A DNA stretch of 9,178 nucleotides from a bacterium. Lineage in GTDB: Bacteria; JACRDZ01; JAJRWM01. Where the stretch lies: positions 1-9,178 of the forward strand of contig JAJRWM010000006.1 of NCBI GenBank assembly GCA_024276815.1, written 5' to 3'. Made by a program: the position numbers and the translations under genes. The notes below the pieces were generated by a model that saw nothing but the letters and a program-made list of their open reading frames with translations, was not told the origin of the DNA and did not search any database. Positions 1 through 7,880 of this stretch are shown in pieces (within the stretch, counting starts at the first letter, position 1; each line of letters begins with the position of its first letter).

Positions 1-390
1 AACCGGTGAAGAATACTGACAGCGAATACCATAGCGGGCTAACTCAACCTTGCAGTTTTCCAGACGGCTTTTTTGATCCTTAACGCTGCGGACGAAATTC
101 AGACCCTGCCAGTCACCCGGAGTCGCCGGCAGTTTAAGCGGGGAAAAAGATACCGGGTTTTCCTTCTCGCCAATGGCCAGCAACTTGCCTTCAACAAACA
201 ACTCTCCCTTTTCGGAACGTTTTTCCTTTTCATAGAACCGGGTATCAAACAACAACTGCGCTCCGGGCTCCACCTTTACCGTGGTTCCCCTGGTGATAAC
301 GACTTTACCGCTGAAGATATAAGGACTGCCATCTTTCGTTAAAATAATATCCTGATCAATCCGACCCTGTAACTCGCCCTTCTTTTGTAA
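1..390 (-). other. Start of a right-handed parallel beta-helix domain (from about residue 2019)
   Basis: Seen: DGSPYIFSGKVVITRGTTV, then KVEPGAQLLF, KGELFVEGKLLAIGEKENPV, PGDWQGLNF and KSRLENCKVELARYGI. This G-x-Y-x-x-x-G-x-V-x-I-x-x-G-x-x-x-x-I/V-E-P-G opening followed by L-x-V-x-G-x-L-x-A-x-G and GDWxGI/L is characteristic of beta-helix (pectate-lyase-like fold) domains of surface and secreted proteins. The domain continues beyond position 1, so its length and any catalytic residues are unknown. Confidence 0.7.
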
Positions 391-3300
391 CCGCGCGACC
401 TTGAATTTAGCGCTGACAACCTCTGTCAGCAACTCCCGTTCACCAGTCTGTCCCCGGTATTTCCGCCTGAACCTGGCGTAAATTGTATGAGCGCCCAGCT
501 TTTTGTTTATCTTCATGGTGACGCTCTCCTTATAAGGCTGCCAACCGGCATCAACAAACAGCGGATGTTCACTGATTATCATCTCCTGCGCTCCGGCGGC
601 GAACAGTTTTAACACCTGTTGCTCTCCGTAGATGACCTTTTTATCAACATTTACCCGAGCCGTATTATAGAAACGGAGCACTTCCGGCTCAGTATCCAGA
701 TAGAAAGTCTCCCTGGCCTCCCTGGCCATGCGGTTTCCTAAAATCCCCTCAGCTCCATCAACAACTATTGTTATTTCCCCCCCCATCTCCTTGGTCAGCT
801 TGATCGGTGAGGAAATAAAAGTATCGTTGGAAATATTCGTGGTTGTCAAAACGTAACGCCTGTCCGGCGTCCCCGGGGGAGGCGCCTCGGTAATATAGGG
901 GACTTCAGGAGTGACGGGAGCCGTGCTGACAAAGCTGATGCGCGGTATCGTGCGAGGATTTATCGCCTCACTAAAGACCAGGGTTATCCGAAAATCGTCC
1001 GTTACTTTTACCGGCCTAGGGTATATATATTTCAAGACATAAGGCAAGTTAGACTTGAGAAAACCAAGTTGACTCTTGGGCCTGGCAACCTTGTCTTTCT
1101 TGCCTACATTTAAAAGTTTTTGCAGTTCCGGCGATAAAGTCTCCAGCAATTCAGCTTTTTTGGATTGTTTTTCCATTTCTTTTTTCCGTTGCGCCTCAAG
1201 ATCCTGCCGGCGATCTTTATCCATGAGTTCCTTTAATTTAAGAGAAATTTCCTCTTCTGAAGGCTGAGCGGCCGTTGGGCCGCCTTCCGCCGCGGTAGCG
1301 GAGATTGTTTGACTTTGATCGTCCAACAACCGGTCTTTAGCGACGGCTTTCGTACCCCACTGCCAAGTGCCCTTTTGCTGCAGGTGACATTGCTCACAGT
1401 TATCCCCGCCATCATTTTTGACGCGAAGAAAACTGGTTTTCTCATTGCCCTCGGTATTGACTACCTTGCCGGTCTCCTCGTCAATTTTATCTCTCAGGTA
1501 AGGATCGTCAGCGCTCCACTGGTGGGGGTTATGACAGGTGGTACAGGAAACATATAAATCAGATTTAGGTTTTACTCTTTTGAGTGACACCGGGTTCACA
1601 AGTTCTCCGCCTATCGTGAAAAGCGGCATGAATGCGGTGGGCAACCGGATCTCCCGATCACCCGGTTCCAGCGGTAATAACAGATGATGTCCGGTCTTGT
1701 TGCCGTCAACTTCTTCAGCGACCTTTTTGAAGGCCGCGCCCAGACGATTATGACAACTATTACACAAGGGGAAGAAGCCGCCTTCAATGTAACCGCCTTC
1801 GGACTTGAGCCAGTCACGCTTGACTATTGGTTTGGCTCCCATTGCCCGCGGATTGCCGTTATGAGCGGTGTGACAAGCTGAACAAACGCCGGAATCGCTG
1901 ACGGTCAGTCCCTTACGGTTCCACTCATCGGGAGCGGTTATCCGTAAATCGTGATCGGTATTAATTATCGTGCTCTTATCTTCGTGGGAGTTAAAACACA
2001 ATTCAGCTTTACCCGAATTGGTTTTTCTCAAGAAGCTGTTATTACCGTCGCCTTCAATGCCTTTGGCCAATTTACGATGGTCGATAACCGGATCGTCAAG
2101 CTCAATAATAGCGTCTTCCTCCACCGAGATCACTTTCGCGAAGGCCTCAAAGCCCTCCTTGGCAAAAGGATTCAGCTTTTCCACTTGCAGGTAGGCGATA
2201 ATCGTTTCATCTTTTAAGACCGCGTAAGTCCCCTTTTCCTTGATCGTTTTACCATCGTCAACATCAATATAAACCACCTCGTCTGAATAATAATACACTC
2301 TGCCGACCCGGATACGGTTAAAGTTCGTGCCGCTGAACATCTGCGGACTCCGATTGGCTTTTTCAAACTGATTGGGCGACCACTGGTGAACAAAATGACA
2401 GGTCATACAGGTTATTTTGCCATTTTCCTTACTTATTTTACCGTTTTCATCAAATTCAGGCAGAGAACTGACCATCCAGTCCGACAACTTCCTGTTTACC
2501 GGGTGATTCCCAGGACCAACCAGAGAAGATGTTACGTCGGCCCGGCTTTTCGACTCCGCCGCCCCGCCCTCTTTATGACAACTACCGCACATCTGGGTTA
2601 CCGGGTCTTCCCCGGCTTCTGTATTCAAAGGACGCGCCCAGCCAAAGACATTAAAACCCTGGTGAGGAACATGACACGGCGAACAGACGCCGGAATCCAA
2701 AACGTTCTTCTCCATGATGTTTTTTAAATTAGGCCCGGTTATGGATAAATCATGGTCCGTGTTTACAATCATTTGCTCTCTTTGATGACAGTCAATACAA
2801 AGAAATGATTCCAAATTGTCTATTCTCAAGAAACTGTTGGAACCGTCGCCTTCCTCGTTTTTATCATGATCCGCTTTCTCGACAACGGGATCCCAGCGAT
2901 GAGGATTATGACAGGTAGCGCAGGTAATTTCGCCATCCGTACGCCGGCTGCCCGAGGGATCATACAAGGGAAGATTGCTGGTTAAACCCTTTTCCAGGAG
3001 ATTGATGCCAACGGAGTGAGAAAAAATGCCGGTCAGTTTTTTCTCGGCGGCCCGGCCTTTCTGATGACAACTGGTGCACAGAATGGTGATCATGTTGTTG
3101 CCTTCCTCGCCCGGTATCTTAGACCACAAAAAAGCGGCCATGCCGTTGTGAACCAAATGGCAGGTGCCGCAAAGCCCGCTTTCTTTTACCGTGTGGCCAT
3201 TAATATTTCTCTCTTGGGGCGCGGTGATATTCAAATCATGATCGGTATTGACAATATATTTGTTTTCGATGTGACAGTTTGCGCAAAGGGTTGATTTTTC

Positions 3301-6300
3301 ATCATCCTTCATCCTTAAAAAACTGTTTCGAGCTGTTCCCTCCTCGTTTTTCCCGCTCCCCTTCGTCTTAACCGCCGGGTCCCATTGATGGACATTATGA
3401 CAGGTGGCGCAAGTGACATCGCCGCCGGGCGCCCTCTGACCTTTTTCGTTAAATAAGGGCAGGGAGGTTTTTACTCTCTGGTCTACGATAGGCATATCCA
3501 CCGAATGAGTCACAAGCCCGGTTTGTTTCCTGGCGGCGCATTCACCGTCAATATGACAGCTATCCACGCAAAACTGGGAATTGGGCGAAAAGGTTGTGTC
3601 CATGTTTCTGGCCCAGATCTTCGGACCGTTAGCCTGGTGCGGCAGGTGGCATACTCCGCAAGGACCGGTCCGCTCTATGGTCTGCCCCAGAACGTTTTTT
3701 TCGCGGGGCGCAGTGACTCTCAGGTCATGTTCCGAACCAATCAGCGGGGTGAAATCATCATGACAGTCAAGACATAAGGGATCATCGCCCAGAAAAGGTT
3801 TTCTCAGAAAACTATTGCTACCGTCGCCTTCTATATTAGCCCGCCGGCCTTGTTTATCACTTTTGGGGTCCCAACGATGCGCGTTATGACAACTACCGCA
3901 ACTAACGTAATACTCTTGAGGGTTTTTCACGGAATCAGCGTACGCCGGCCTGAGTACTTTACCCTTTTTGCTGTACAAGGGAAAAGATGTTTTGCTGTTG
4001 GATTTCTTCATGGATTTGCCGGTTGGATGACTCATCGCCGTGATTGTTTTTTTCTCGGCGTTACCGCCCTTTTCGTGACAGGTAGCCAGGCAAACCCGGC
4101 GGAAAGGATCGCTTCCGGTCTCGCCCAGTTTACGCGCCCAGATTAAAGGCCCCGTGCCGTTATGGGTCAGGTGACAAGAGCTACACAGACCTTTTTCACT
4201 GACTGTTTCGTCCAGAATATTCTTGTCGTTGGGAGCGGTAACAGTCATATCATGTTCGGTATTTTCCAAGTAGCGGTTCTGATCTGAATGACAGTTAATA
4301 CAAAGACGCGAGCTTTCGTTGGTAATCCTCAGGAAGCTGTTGCTGAAGTCCCCCTCAGTGTTCTTTGGCGTGCCCTTGGTCGAATCGTGCGGATCCCACT
4401 GGTGGACATCGTGGCAGGTAGCGCAGGTAACATACCCATCCATCGATTCGCCCTTGCTGCTTTGCAGGATCAAAGCGTCTTCCGGAATCTCGACGCCATT
4501 CAGGTAATACAGCGGCAGAGTCGTCTTGCCATCAGCGTCCTTGATATTGACTTGTACCGGGTGAGTATATTTTCCGACAACTTTTTTGCCGGCGCACTCA
4601 TCTTTTTTATGGCAACTATTGCATAACTGGCTGATGATATCCCCCTGGCCATCAACCTCCCTGGCCCAGGTTTTCGCTTCCCGGCCATAATGGGTCAAAT
4701 GACAGGCGCTACAAACCCCGCCCTTGGATTCCCGAACCGTTTCCCCCCTGATATTCTTTTCATCCGGAGCGATTTCAGTCAGATTGTGCTCACTGTTGAT
4801 AACAGACGACTTATCAGCGTGACACTTCAGGCAGAGGAAAGACTCCTTAACGTCAAAACCCAGGTTACGGGTGCCGCTCAAAGCCTGGTGCGGCCGATGG
4901 CAGGTATCACAGACAATTTCTCCGCCCGGCCCCAAAACCCCGCCCGCGGACAAGATATCGGCAGGAATCTTTATTTTCGTGGAAAATACGTTAACCGGAT
5001 GAGTATGGTTTTTCTCGGCCTGCTCAACAGTCATGGTGTTTAATTCCTGATGGCAAACCCCGCACAACTGCGACTTGTCGTTTTCCAGGATCAGGTTGCT
5101 GGAACCAATCTTTCCGCCGTGCATACGATGACAGCTGCCACAGACCATCTGCCCCTTTTCGCCCAGAATCGCCCCGTTATCCTTGAGGATTTTCGGCAAC
5201 TCGTATCTTTCGTCAGGAATGATATTGACCGGATGAGTCCCGGCGTTACGGGCTTCGCCAACAGTCATAGTCGTTACTTCCGCATGACAAAGACTGCATA
5301 AAGCCGAATCTTTATTACTGGCTATCAAGAGATTTTTTTGGGGAGCGTCGTAAGCGTTATGAGACTTGTGACAGGTGTTGCAAGTCACCCGCCCGTCCTC
5401 CAGCTTGATGATCTTGTTAGGCTTCATGCCTTTTTTCAGGGGAACACCGATAGAATGAGTGCCCCTGTTTTCCAGCTTGGAGCCTTCTTTATCCTTTTCC
5501 GGATGGCACTGGATACAAAACAACCCGCGTTCACTGCTGACAATCAACAGTTTCGTCTTTTCCGCGGCCCTATGGGAAACATGACAGGTACGACAGATCA
5601 CTTTCCCCTCCGAGCTTAAGACAACTTTCTCACCATTAGCCCACATTTTAGGTAGCTTCGTTTTGTCCGGTTTCTTGTTGACCACGTGAGACTGCTGACC
5701 GGCTCCGTGTTTCGGCCGACTGGGGTTTTCACCGTGACAGGACTCGCAGAGTTCGGAACGGGTAACTCCTTTACCCGAAACCGGCTTGATCAGTATTTTC
5801 TCACCGGGAGGAGCGCCGTGAACCACATGGCAGGTTTCGCAAATTACGATTTTCTCCCCTTTTTCATTCAGACCAAACTTGGCTCCGCCAGAAATTATCT
5901 TTTTCGACAATCTGGAGACCGGAATCATGACAGGATGAGAGCCTTTTTCCGGGCCTACCCCCTTAACCTGATGGCAGTCCAGGCAAATCCGCGAGTTTTT
6001 CGCCAAGCCCCGCAGGTTGCTTTTGCCCTCAATGGCATGGGGCGAATGACAGGTGCCGCAGTAGAGCCGCCCCTGCTTGTCGAGCGGGAAATTGGAGGGG
6101 ACACTGACATCCAGAGAAGGAACTATGCCGGTCAAATGCCGCTTATCGGTCCAGGCGGTCATCCGGGAATCAAGCACCGTACCGTCGTGGCAGCCAAAAC
6201 AAATGAACTCGTCAGCAACCAGATCTTTTTCTGTATATTGAAAAAGCAAGTCGGTGCCGGTCTTTAACGTCGCGATATCGCTGATATGACAGCGCAGACA

Positions 6301-6444
6301 CTCCTCGTTGGTGATATCCGTTGACACCTGCGCCCAGGCGGAAGACTGGATGCCGTGGAAACATATCAATAAAAACAAACCATAAAAAATCAGCCGTTTT
6401 TTTGGCCCAAGCAGAACTTTTAAAAGAGAGTTGGCACTACCCAT
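1..6444 (-). CDS. Giant exported multiheme c-type cytochrome with C-terminal Ig-like and beta-helix domains (3' end outside window)
   Basis: One uninterrupted frame of at least 2148 codons, still open at position 1. The ATG at 6444 follows AAGGA by 6 nt and gives a signal peptide with a basic n-region (KKR), hydrophobic core and an AWA-Q cleavage site near residues 38-39. I count 35 CXXCH motifs, two CX3CH (CLATCH 785, CVDSCH 959) and one degenerate CFNSH (1483), so about 37 predicted covalent hemes. Many motifs are followed by a second His (CHxxH), and HPV or EHDL segments may supply further axial ligands. Order: motif pair at 49 and 82; six diheme repeats (129-542); six tetraheme repeats (578-1687); coiled-coil-like linker (about 1729-1775); Ig-like domains (about 1808-1914 and 1917-2012); beta-helix start (from about 2020). 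No lipobox is seen. The protein is expected to be exported and to act as a long electron conduit, perhaps extracellular. It overlaps the membrane cytochrome gene by 25 bp. No named orthologue is recognised. Confidence 0.93.
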   Translation of the reverse strand, partial: MGSANSLLKVLLGPKKRLIFYGLFLLICFHGIQSSAWAQVSTDITNEECLRCHISDIATLKTGTDLLFQYTEKDLVADEFICFGCHDGTVLDSRMTAWTDKRHLTGIVPSLDVSVPSNFPLDKQGRLYCGTCHSPHAIEGKSNLRGLAKNSRICLDCHQVKGVGPEKGSHPVMIPVSRLSKKIISGGAKFGLNEKGEKIVICETCHVVHGAPPGEKILIKPVSGKGVTRSELCESCHGENPSRPKHGAGQQSHVVNKKPDKTKLPKMWANGEKVVLSSEGKVICRTCHVSHRAAEKTKLLIVSSERGLFCIQCHPEKDKEGSKLENRGTHSIGVPLKKGMKPNKIIKLEDGRVTCNTCHKSHNAYDAPQKNLLIASNKDSALCSLCHAEVTTMTVGEARNAGTHPVNIIPDERYELPKILKDNGAILGEKGQMVCGSCHRMHGGKIGSSNLILENDKSQLCGVCHQELNTMTVEQAEKNHTHPVNVFSTKIKIPADILSAGGVLGPGGEIVCDTCHRPHQALSGTRNLGFDVKESFLCLKCHADKSSVINSEHNLTEIAPDEKNIRGETVRESKGGVCSACHLTHYGREAKTWAREVDGQGDIISQLCNSCHKKDECAGKKVVGKYTHPVQVNIKDADGKTTLPLYYLNGVEIPEDALILQSSKGESMDGYVTCATCHDVHQWDPHDSTKGTPKNTEGDFSNSFLRITNESSRLCINCHSDQNRYLENTEHDMTVTAPNDKNILDETVSEKGLCSSCHLTHNGTGPLIWARKLGETGSDPFRRVCLATCHEKGGNAEKKTITAMSHPTGKSMKKSNSKTSFPLYSKKGKVLRPAYADSVKNPQEYYVSCGSCHNAHRWDPKSDKQGRRANIEGDGSNSFLRKPFLGDDPLCLDCHDDFTPLIGSEHDLRVTAPREKNVLGQTIERTGPCGVCHLPHQANGPKIWARNMDTTFSPNSQFCVDSCHIDGECAARKQTGLVTHSVDMPIVDQRVKTSLPLFNEKGQRAPGGDVTCATCHNVHQWDPAVKTKGSGKNEEGTARNSFLRMKDDEKSTLCANCHIENKYIVNTDHDLNITAPQERNINGHTVKESGLCGTCHLVHNGMAAFLWSKIPGEEGNNMITILCTSCHQKGRAAEKKLTGIFSHSVGINLLEKGLTSNLPLYDPSGSRRTDGEITCATCHNPHRWDPVVEKADHDKNEEGDGSNSFLRIDNLESFLCIDCHQREQMIVNTDHDLSITGPNLKNIMEKNVLDSGVCSPCHVPHQGFNVFGWARPLNTEAGEDPVTQMCGSCHKEGGAAESKSRADVTSSLVGPGNHPVNRKLSDWMVSSLPEFDENGKISKENGKITCMTCHFVHQWSPNQFEKANRSPQMFSGTNFNRIRVGRVYYYSDEVVYIDVDDGKTIKEKGTYAVLKDETIIAYLQVEKLNPFAKEGFEAFAKVISVEEDAIIELDDPVIDHRKLAKGIEGDGNNSFLRKTNSGKAELCFNSHEDKSTIINTDHDLRITAPDEWNRKGLTVSDSGVCSACHTAHNGNPRAMGAKPIVKRDWLKSEGGYIEGGFFPLCNSCHNRLGAAFKKVAEEVDGNKTGHHLLLPLEPGDREIRLPTAFMPLFTIGGELVNPVSLKRVKPKSDLYVSCTTCHNPHQWSADDPYLRDKIDEETGKVVNTEGNEKTSFLRVKNDGGDNCEQCHLQQKGTWQWGTKAVAKDRLLDDQSQTISATAAEGGPTAAQPSEEEISLKLKELMDKDRRQDLEAQRKKEMEKQSKKAELLETLSPELQKLLNVGKKDKVARPKSQLGFLKSNLPYVLKYIYPRPVKVTDDFRITLVFSEAINPRTIPRISFVSTAPVTPEVPYITEAPPPGTPDRRYVLTTTNISNDTFISSPIKLTKEMGGEITIVVDGAEGILGNRMAREARETFYLDTEPEVLRFYNTARVNVDKKVIYGEQQVLKLFAAGAQEMIISEHPLFVDAGWQPYKESVTMKINKKLGAHTIYARFRRKYRGQTGERELLTEVVSAKFKVARLQKKGELQGRIDQDIILTKDGSPYIFSGKVVITRGTTVKVEPGAQLLFDTRFYEKEKRSEKGELFVEGKLLAIGEKENPVSFSPLKLPATPGDWQGLNFVRSVKDQKSRLENCKVELARYGIRCQYSSPV
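409..696 (-). other. Second Ig-like domain (about residues 1917-2012)
   Basis: It starts YLDTEPEVLRFYNTARVN and runs through LKLFAAGAQEMIIS, a GWQPYKESVTMKI strand and a final KKLGAHTIYARFR strand. This order (D-T-x-P start, E-M-x-I-S, W-x-P-Y, G-x-x-T-I-Y-x-R/K-F-R) is that of Ig-like domains often found near the C-terminus of large exported proteins. No function beyond a structural role can be read from it. Confidence 0.6.
703..1056 (-). other. SbsA-type Ig-like domain (about residues 1797-1914)
   Basis: The segment begins with a strand of the form VTDDFRITLVFSEAINPRT and ends with GEITIVVDGAEGILGNRM. This is the usual layout of bacterial Ig-like (Big_5/SbsA-like) domains: an early F-S-E-x-I/V-N/D-P turn and a closing G-x-x-D-x-x-GN-x-M/L strand. 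It has no Cys. Such domains are common spacers in surface and secreted proteins. Confidence 0.65.
1120..1260 (-). other. Charged, probably coiled-coil linker (about residues 1729-1775)
   Basis: After the last heme motif (CEQCH 1683) comes a small-residue stretch rich in Ala, Gly, Ser and Pro, then a run of Glu, Lys, Gln, Leu and Met (SEEEISLKLKELMDKDRR, then KKEMEKQSKKAELLETL). Leucines and isoleucines recur at heptad-like spacing. It probably forms a helical spacer separating the heme part from the C-terminal domains. Confidence 0.6.
1984..1998 (-). other. Degenerate heme motif CFNSH (second Cys replaced by Ser)
   Basis: Residues 1483-1487 read Cys-Phe-Asn-Ser-His where the other five tetraheme units have an intact CXXCH. 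The serine codon is TCC, one base from the cysteine codon TGC. The flanking NSFLR...ELC and NTDHDL motifs are intact, so the position is aligned with certainty. Either the heme is lost, it is held through a single thioether, or the base is an error. Confidence 0.85.
2083..2319 (-). other. Beta-rich insertion domain in tetraheme unit five (about residues 1376-1454)
   Basis: Between CMTCH (1346) and the NSFLR motif (1469-1473), unit five contains about 80-90 residues absent from the other five units. The insert is hydrophobic/charged alternating, with stretches such as GRVYYYSDEVVYIDVDDG, GTYAVLKDETIIAYLQVEK and FAKVISVEEDAIIELDDPVI, which suggests a small beta-barrel. The pattern (strand, D-G turn, G-x-x-Y/F-x-V, I-A-x-L-x-V, I-x-x-x-D-P-V) faintly recalls SH3-like domains such as the FlgT C-terminal domain. 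This resemblance is by eye only. It contains no Cys, so it binds no c-type heme. Confidence 0.6.
4819..6060 (-). repeat. Array of six diheme protein repeats (giant cytochrome residues 129-542)
   Basis: Twelve CXXCH motifs come in six pairs, with first Cys at 129/154, 202/233, 284/310, 355/383, 435/461 and 512/538. Repeat spacing is 71-82 residues. Each unit reads roughly C-x-T/S-CHxxH, then a short N-L-L/I-like strand, LC-x-x-CH, a HPV/HSI-type segment, a leucine/proline-rich stretch, and a glycine-rich turn leading to the next VC-x-TCH. The units have diverged in nucleotide sequence, so this is an old protein repeat and not a recent tandem duplication. The last pair (512/538) already carries the EHNL...APxxKN tail typical of the tetraheme array that follows. 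Confidence 0.85.
6316..6444 (-). other. Signal peptide region of the giant cytochrome
   Basis: Residues 1-43 have a 14-residue lead, a basic stretch (KKR, 15-17), a hydrophobic stretch (LIFYGLFLLIC) and small residues ending AWA before Gln39. This is a Sec-type signal with a plausible signal peptidase I site. A Cys (29) lies within the hydrophobic core but lacks a lipobox, so lipid anchoring is not indicated. Export to the periplasm is needed for c-type heme attachment, which agrees. Confidence 0.8.
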
Positions 6445-7880
6445 TCTTTATCCTTTGTCAGCATGCCGAATTCTTCCAGATTGCGGAAATTCTTAATTTC
6501 TTTTCGCGAATATGAAAGAGCGGAAAAATCCATCACGCTTTTTTCTTCCTCAACGTGACAACGCACGCACTCAAGACCTTTTTTATCCGTTCGGTAACCC
6601 AAAGGAATAACGCCGTCATCTTTCATGCCCAAGACAATTTTTTTGCCTCCCACCACTTTATAGGGCATTATCTTGCTGCCGTTATCGTAATCCATACCCC
6701 GATAATCCGAGAGATATTCAACCTGACCGTTGTACCAAAGATAATCAATGCGGTCCCCGGTTTCTCTCTTGATATGACAGGTTTCACAGGCTAATTTACG
6801 GGAATGACGATTCATAAAGGTCCGCAAAACCAGGTTCTTCTGGTGAGGTAAAACGCCGTGGCAGATACGACAAAAACTTTTGTACTCCGGAGTCAAGGCC
6901 TGAAGATCAAAAGGTACTTCTTTGGTCTTTAATTGCATCATCATTCTCAAAATGTAAGGAGCGGCCAGCGTCAGAACAAAGATATAAACAAAAACCGCTA
7001 TGTATTTCCAGTTTTCCTGGGTCAGCTTCCTGATGAAAGTGAAGGAATAATGAAATAAAAGAATCCCGACGCCGATAAAGACAAAAATCGCTGAGAATCG
7101 ACCCAGTTCATGGATAAAAAAAGCTAAACCGCCTTTATATAACTGGTGGTTTACCCCCCTGCCAAAACGAGCGATGGCATCCGGATGACAGCCCTCGGTC
7201 TTGCAGGTTTTATTCTTTTTGCTCTTACTCCTCGTTGAAAGAATGTCATCATAGCGACGTATATTATGAGTGGTATGACAACTGACACAGGTCGCGGAGT
7301 TCCTGATATTGAAGTTTACCGCTTTGCCGTGATAACTGTCATCGTATGAATCAATTACGGTCGTGGAAACCTTGTGCTTGGCCATCAACTCAGTATCGGT
7401 ATGGCAACCAACACAAGTAAGATTAATTTCCCGCGGCGAAAACTCGGCGCTGCGTCTTTCGCTGTGCTCAATGTGACAGGCGACACAACCAATACTGTCT
7501 TCATTGGCCTCTCCATGAGCGCTCCAGACATACTCGTTGTTCTCCCGCTGGTGGCTGTACCCCTTGTCAATCGAATCATCTTCAAGGTGACACTCCACCG
7601 AACAGTCAACTCTCCGGTAATTCTTCGGATCATGAGGCGTTTTCTTGATATAAGAGTGACAGGTCTGACAAGTCAGTTTTTTATGAGCGGAGGAGTTAAA
7701 GACATCAGGATTGACATGAAAATCCCGGACTACGCCTTCCCTGGTCATCACTTTGAGGTTACGGTGCTGATGACACTTCGAGCAGTTTAAGACATCAACA
7801 GCGCCGCCAACAATACTTAACGCCAGGAAGGAAAACAACAATAAAATAAATAACGCCTGTTTTTTCATGTTATTTGGCAT
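6420..7880 (-). CDS. Integral-membrane decaheme c-type cytochrome (7 hemes - 2 TM - 3 hemes)
   Basis: A 486-residue membrane-bound multiheme cytochrome c, not recognised as a named family. A signal peptide or anchor (MKKQALFILLLFSFLAL, from residue 5) precedes seven heme motifs: CSKCH 33, CQTCH 71, CSVECH 93 (CX3CH), CVACH 132, CVGCH 156, CVSCH 198 and CKTEGCH 226 (CX4CH). Two membrane helices follow (about 263-283 and 293-314), joined by a short basic loop, then three more motifs: CRICH 337, CETCH 365 and CVRCH 438. By the positive-inside rule both heme domains face the periplasm. His257 and His277 flank and end the first helix, but their spacing of 20 is not a classical heme b pair. A likely role (inference) is electron transfer between the quinone pool and periplasmic or secreted cytochromes. 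The ATG at 7880 is chosen over a TTG at 7904 because GGAG (7890-7893) lies 9 nt upstream; ATG 7868 is also possible. The gene overlaps purN by 11 bp and the giant cytochrome by 25 bp. Confidence 0.9.
   Translation of the reverse strand: MPNNMKKQALFILLLFSFLALSIVGGAVDVLNCSKCHQHRNLKVMTREGVVRDFHVNPDVFNSSAHKKLTCQTCHSYIKKTPHDPKNYRRVDCSVECHLEDDSIDKGYSHQRENNEYVWSAHGEANEDSIGCVACHIEHSERRSAEFSPREINLTCVGCHTDTELMAKHKVSTTVIDSYDDSYHGKAVNFNIRNSATCVSCHTTHNIRRYDDILSTRSKSKKNKTCKTEGCHPDAIARFGRGVNHQLYKGGLAFFIHELGRFSAIFVFIGVGILLFHYSFTFIRKLTQENWKYIAVFVYIFVLTLAAPYILRMMMQLKTKEVPFDLQALTPEYKSFCRICHGVLPHQKNLVLRTFMNRHSRKLACETCHIKRETGDRIDYLWYNGQVEYLSDYRGMDYDNGSKIMPYKVVGGKKIVLGMKDDGVIPLGYRTDKKGLECVRCHVEEEKSVMDFSALSYSRKEIKNFRNLEEFGMLTKDKEWVVPTLF
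6451..6456 (-). promoter_or_regulatory. Ribosome binding site of the giant cytochrome
   Basis: The minus strand reads AAAGGA, then a 6-nt spacer TAAAGA, then ATG at 6444-6442. It lies inside the coding region of the upstream membrane cytochrome, and the start precedes that gene's stop (6420-6422). This supports the 6444 start, which is also the one that yields a complete signal peptide, and implies coupled translation. Confidence 0.8.

Follow-up and report, generated by a model that had tools for sequence, protein, structure and literature searches.

The window analysed here is an entire bacterial contig of 9,178 bases (C235; GenBank JAJRWM010000006.1) from a 2.39 Mb draft genome (G000; assembly GCA_024276815.1). 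Its minus strand carries a gene for a giant multiheme cytochrome in which a single chain joins a long heme array, interrupted near its end by a small beta-barrel, to two immunoglobulin (Ig)-like domains and a beta-helix. A search of 60 genomes together with a contig scan found tail-bearing counterparts only in three other genomes of the same phylum (G001, G002 and G003), and these also combine the heme array with the beta-helix. A second multiheme cytochrome, predicted to be membrane-bound, is encoded directly upstream. Taken as a whole, the reading that the two proteins form a heme wire supplied by quinol and held in place by a tip that binds sugar or cell wall is given a slightly better than even chance of being correct.

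The heme array and its fused tail

The frame contained no stop codon between positions 6444 and 1, which agreed with the preliminary description of an uninterrupted frame of at least 2148 codons. Because the contig ends inside the gene, the C-terminus was read from the orthologues. Residue 2143 of the window protein aligned to residue 2164 of 2427 in the G001 orthologue and to residue 2262 of 2526 in the G003 orthologue, and these proteins supplied the missing residues (approximately 263), which comprise the remainder of the beta-helix and a charged tail. No continuation of the gene was identified in the window genome; the best candidate, contig C168, was rejected because it encodes a paralogue (34% identity) with about 210 residues too many before the helix. 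At the other end of the protein, residues 10-36 were the only strongly hydrophobic stretch, and the N-termini of the orthologues were likewise signal-peptide-like.

A gene that runs off the end of its contig, with one frameshifted relative, could be an assembly or frameshift artefact in which a cytochrome was wrongly merged with a surface protein unrelated to it. The G001 (C40) and G003 (C12) orthologues were intact proteins of 2427 and 2526 residues with 38 motifs each, 42 and 41% identical to the window protein across the alignment. Over the tail, identity was 34-38% in the three other assemblies. The G002 counterpart (C141) was split into two frames with 27 and 10 motifs by an apparent frameshift, which lies inside the array. 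Neither the window nor the two intact orthologues had a stop or frameshift separating the hemes from the tail. Since four assemblies share one architecture, with the same fusion and domain order, a chimaera is ruled out, and the orthologues leave the artefact next to no probability.

The giant protein contained 35 CXXCH and two CX3CH motifs, the first at residue 49 and the last at residue 1683, while 500 shuffled sequences of the same composition contained a mean of 0.14 CXXCH motifs and a maximum of two. Three Pfam heme families (PF09699, PF14522 and PF14537) all matched the array far above their cut-offs. The count of 38 motif-like sites made earlier, which included one CXXSH, was confirmed. 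This last site, CFNSH at residue 1483, is a decayed 38th heme site, because it is CXXCH in four relatives; two further formal CXXSH matches (residues 287 and 358) merely overlapped real motifs. Comparison of the window protein with both intact orthologues showed 76 invariant histidines, of which 37 lie in motifs. Among the other 39, H1487 belongs to the decayed site, and the remaining 38, as many as there are sites, are candidate second ligands. This fits a chain of low-spin, bis-histidine electron-transfer hemes that would have no open catalytic site. The wire-like electron conduit proposed at the outset was thus well supported as a type by the dense array, the conserved second ligands, homology to giant cytochromes, and the membrane cytochrome encoded upstream.

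The array could not be placed in the curated decaheme families. The OmcA/MtrC and DmsE/MtrA families scored under their curated cut-offs (35 of 209 bits for TIGR03507 and 116 of 192 bits for TIGR03508), and the OmcA/MtrC, DmsE and GSU2203 decaheme identities were rejected as generic heme-motif matches, far under cut-off. Sequence searches for solved homologues of the protein yielded one marginal match (3ouq, E 0.049) and nothing meaningful for the tail. A tight CXXCH-spacing pattern scanned over the genome gave no match.

In the tail-bearing relatives, two hemes close to the array's end stand 136-175 residues apart, with a small beta-barrel in the space. The 34-35-heme paralogues that lack the tail also lacked the barrel, which indicates that insert and tail go together. 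In structural alignments (VIA-align), the barrel matched those at the N-termini of F1-ATPase subunits and HerA with Z scores of about 10-11; this was read as a common small barrel and not as kinship. The heme part of the barrel model was unusable (mean predicted local distance difference test score, pLDDT, of 44).

The roughly 460 heme-free residues at the end of the window protein had been described as a linker, two Ig-like domains and the start of a beta-helix, and profiles and a model of the orthologues bore this layout out. The tail was modelled with AlphaFold on the G003 orthologue and aligned with that of the window protein, of which the window holds only the beginning of the helix. Mean pLDDT was 80.5, mostly 90-98 across the beta-helix, and the region corresponding to that after residue 1800 formed two beta-sandwich domains followed by a confident beta-helix. 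The orthologues matched the Pfam families Beta_helix (4e-22) and NosD (1e-16) over cut-off, and the helix is of this PF13229/NosD type. Its VIA-align scores were Z 33.3 to AlgG (root-mean-square deviation 2.0 over 292 residues) and Z 31.3 to NosD, and other structural neighbours found with Foldseek and VIA-align were AlgE4/E6, phage tailspikes and the PfbA adhesin. The nearest solved beta-helices include alginate epimerases and lyases, and the tail could be a polysaccharide-acting enzyme, with no role for the hemes beyond redox storage or anchoring. Identity to these enzymes was below 20%, however, and the DPH motif, which is part of the catalytic motif of AlgG, was absent from the beta-helices of the orthologues, their one DPH being in the heme part. 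An enzymatic tail is accordingly considered very improbable.

For the Ig-like domains, the window protein matched Big_5 at 13.7 of 23.6 bits, under cut-off, Big_13 was over cut-off in paralogues, and Foldseek returned tandem Ig/FN3 matches for the two beta-sandwiches of the G003 model. The Ig-like assignment is weaker than that of the beta-helix. The linker-plus-Ig stretch was found in all four genomes of the phylum, and the other 382 sampled genomes contained only five short matches to it (approximately 44-56 residues).

Relatives of the giant cytochrome and the origin of the fusion

The array is one of a family whose members carry 14-38 hemes and occur in the Nitrospirota, Thermodesulfobacteriota, Pseudomonadota, Myxococcota and other phyla, with identities of 30-41%. 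In most loci outside the phylum of the window, the giant cytochrome was preceded by genes for an 8-heme cytochrome, a cytochrome b561, a 3-heme cytochrome and an NHL propeller, in that order. This five-gene operon was conserved across several phyla (loci L002-L040; for example L015:6012-12247), was sometimes present twice in tandem, and had no MtrB-type porin found beside it. The chains of the giants from other phyla end 24-83 residues after the last heme, whereas the window protein adds the barrel, the two Ig-like domains and the beta-helix. Its array of CXXCH pairs is homologous to that of the family and has the family spacing, and its octaheme and triheme partners are encoded directly upstream as one fused gene rather than as separate genes. 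Cytochrome b561 and the NHL propeller were absent from the unit in the window and from those in G001 and G003, so the window protein is classed as a homologue of the giant cytochrome of the operon family rather than being assigned to the five-gene operon. The widespread five-gene set is condensed here to two genes, an 8-heme/3-heme membrane fusion followed by the giant, with b561 and NHL gone.

Literature searches found no published name or description of the octaheme-b561-triheme-NHL-giant operon, and no description of Desantisbacteria with multiheme cytochromes. Even so, calling the fused protein the candidate for an undescribed system was an overstatement, as the array belongs to a multi-phylum family with a conserved operon and giant cytochromes with a beta-helix have been described in anaerobic methanotrophic archaea (ANME) (PMC9012536). 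The large cytochromes of these archaea have 20-80 heme-binding sites, and the multiheme cytochrome (MHC) type C carries a pectin-lyase (beta-helix) domain for which recognition of the partner cell wall was suggested (PMC9012536). Compared by description, ANME MHC-C and the window protein both have a giant heme array and a pectin-lyase-type beta-helix in one chain, but the former is archaeal with an N-terminal beta-helix and the latter bacterial with a C-terminal one. The PCC3 proteins, also very large linear multiheme cytochromes, have 10-35 hemes or more and were proposed to be periplasm-spanning or extracellular wires (PMC5566968, PMC10734462). They differ in their density (a median of about 26 residues per heme, against about 44 in the window protein) and in their association with a porin and a five-helix membrane protein, whereas no porin adjoins the window gene. 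MtoA-like cytochromes of Dethiobacter resemble the window protein in their C-terminal Ig-like domains; in the portion of that report available, the heme domain is of MtoA type and no beta-helix is mentioned, while the window protein has a beta-helix and a different array (PMC10376724). As far as the searches reach, the Ig/beta-helix tail and the internal barrel were found only in this phylum, and no precedent is apparent for the domain order, the C-terminal position of the tail, the barrel insertion or the condensation into two genes.

The same phylum also contains the unfused form. Proteins with 34-35 hemes were encoded next to an NHL gene in the window genome (C115), G001 (C117) and G003 (C21), and the G001 and G003 loci also contained b561 and triheme genes. 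A phylogenetic tree was built from the stretch holding the first 14 hemes alone, since the rest is ambiguous owing to internal repeats. In this tree, which has long branches, that of the window protein included, the four fused proteins formed one clade (support 100/98) that was sister to the unfused proteins of the phylum. The fused form thus had one origin within the phylum, and the simplest history would be one duplication there, followed by gain of the barrel, the Ig pair and the beta-helix.

The domains of the tail also occurred in other combinations. A 2838-residue paralogue in G001 (C83; L067:2970-11486) had 22 hemes, Ig domains, a beta-helix, more Ig domains and a C-terminal SPOR domain, which is of a peptidoglycan-binding type. 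In G002, a frame with 15 hemes, Ig domains and a beta-helix (C156; L018:5056-12036) ran without a stop into CTP synthase (PyrG), which may reflect a small assembly indel. Two frames in the window genome, of at least 2774 (C1; L065:3103-11427) and 1723 residues (C168; L066:2-5170) and both cut by contig ends, were built from repeated copies of these Ig and beta-helix units and had no hemes.

The partner cytochrome and a proposed electron route

The 3' end of the partner gene extends 25 bases into the giant gene, past its start, and the two genes are adjacent in G001 and G003 as well. Residues 7-288 of its product matched an octaheme family. The profile for this family was built from sequences that match the partner gene, which makes its score partly circular; the best direct pairwise match outside the phylum (7.9e-38) is free of this circularity. 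Residues 327-485 matched a triheme family (domain E 1.9e-25 and 2.1e-12, the former with an independently chosen profile), and two transmembrane helices lie between the two modules.

These features suggest the following route. The giant protein would leave the cytoplasm by way of its Sec signal peptide and acquire 37 c-type hemes (38 in the ancestor), each with bis-histidine ligation. The upstream cytochrome, in the inner membrane, would take electrons from the quinol pool and pass them to the wire, or electrons would travel in reverse, and the heme chain could carry them tens of nanometres from the inner membrane. The Ig-like pair would act as a spacer, and the beta-helix, which is of a type with frequent sugar binding, would bind a glycan (of the cell wall, the outer surface, a capsule or biofilm polymer, or a partner cell), fixing the far end of the wire so that electrons are delivered where the tail holds it. 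The window genome encodes cytochrome c assembly genes and many other multiheme cytochromes, and an outer membrane is probable because BamA is present.

Several results weigh against a quinol-fed, tip-positioned wire. The partner had no match to cytochrome b561, which weakens the case for quinol oxidation, and in G002 the fused partner homologue was encoded on another contig. A beta-helix fold alone is no proof of glycan binding; NosD, which has this fold, serves in copper-site assembly. Furthermore, a profile scan recognised no sorting domain in the tail, and a search for an MtrB/PioB porin, which covered PF11854 only, gave no match in the four genomes, leaving no visible route to the cell surface.

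The preliminary description had proposed a surface-attachment or substrate-binding tip. Its Ig-like and beta-helix folds were right, but nothing places the tip outside the cell, and a periplasmic, wall-bound tip is also possible because the similarly laid-out G001 paralogue ends in a SPOR domain. One specific form of the proposed wire is periplasmic: the tail would bind peptidoglycan, the hemes would bridge the membranes, and separate outer-membrane carriers would take electrons onward. The SPOR domain and the lack of PF11854 matches both point this way, as does a published estimate that 21-27 hemes could be enough to cross a periplasm (PMC10734462). No SPOR domain occurs in the orthologues of the window protein itself, though, and 37 hemes with a long rigid tail seem more than a periplasm needs, which puts this form on the unlikely side. 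The other specific form is a surface cytochrome in which the beta-helix is the recognition tip for contact with minerals or partner cells, as proposed for ANME MHC-C. It draws on the shared giant array and beta-helix and the suggested recognition of partner walls (PMC9012536), and on the structural proximity of the helix to phage tailspikes and the PfbA adhesin. With no visible passage through the outer membrane and a domain order reversed relative to ANME MHC-C, it is plausible at somewhat short of an even chance.

Within the wire reading, a still narrower proposal can be made tentatively and is held to be unlikely: a two-protein, porin-free conduit, in which the inner-membrane 10-heme fusion feeds a 37-38-heme wire that passes through the envelope, and the glycan-binding beta-helix docks on a wall, a sheath, a mineral-coating polymer or a partner cell. 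Such a conduit, if real, would amount to a minimal pathway for extracellular electrons, arrived at through gene fusion within a single uncultured phylum and in parallel to that of ANME. A wire and a docking module in one chain bear on how giant cytochromes find and hold the place where they deliver electrons, and the effect of the tail is testable by comparison with the close paralogues of the same phylum that lack the docking module. The analysis also brings out a cross-phylum operon for giant cytochromes.

Window layout and other large cytochromes

The minus-strand gene order in the window was purM (cut by the contig end), purN, the partner cytochrome and the giant gene, and neighbouring genes of this unit overlap each other by 8 to 25 bases. 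Coordinates are listed in Table 1.

Table 1. Features of the giant cytochrome gene and its partner in the window
Feature	Position	Strand	Basis or remark
Giant cytochrome with Ig-like and beta-helix tail	1..6444	-	Open frame; ~263 C-terminal residues off contig
Ribosome-binding-site-like AAAGGA, 6 bases before start ATG (6444), inside 3' end of upstream gene	6451..6456	-	Sequence reading
Sec-type signal peptide, residues 1-39 (...SSAWAQ)	6328..6444	-	Cleavage site inferred from sequence
Heme array, residues 49-1687, 37 CX2-3CH motifs, ~44 residues/heme	1384..6300	-	Motif count, Pfam and alignment
Small beta-barrel in array after 33rd heme motif, residues 1374-1459	2068..2325	-	Relatives' alignment and model
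Decayed heme site CFNSH, residues 1483-1487	1984..1998	-	CXXCH at same site in four relatives
Linker, charged, poorly conserved, residues 1690-1800	1045..1377	-	Alignment with orthologues
Ig-like domain 1, residues 1801-1916	697..1044	-	Alignment, profile under cut-off, model, Foldseek
Ig-like domain 2, residues 1920-2012	409..687	-	Alignment, model, Foldseek
Right-handed parallel beta-helix, start only, residues 2021-2148	1..384	-	Pfam in orthologues, AlphaFold, structure alignment
Partner membrane cytochrome, 10 heme motifs; octaheme-type module, two transmembrane helices, triheme module	6420..7880	-	Profiles, pairwise matches

Other large cytochromes were encountered in the course of the analysis. 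Besides its operon-family giant, locus L026 holds a different, longer protein, from the Desulfobulbaceae (L026:19353-26891; at least 2513 residues), in which 20 heme motifs are followed by HYDIN-type Ig repeats and beta-propellers. This is a further giant cytochrome that carries a surface-type tail, one built differently. Cytochromes of PCC3-like density with 26 and 16 hemes (approximately 25-28 residues per heme) adjoined the five-gene operon at two loci (L007:2433-5690 and L010:14768-18008, respectively). A 617-residue cytochrome with 23 heme motifs, also of PCC3-like density (approximately 27 residues per heme), was encoded elsewhere in the window genome (C30; L095:3896-5749).

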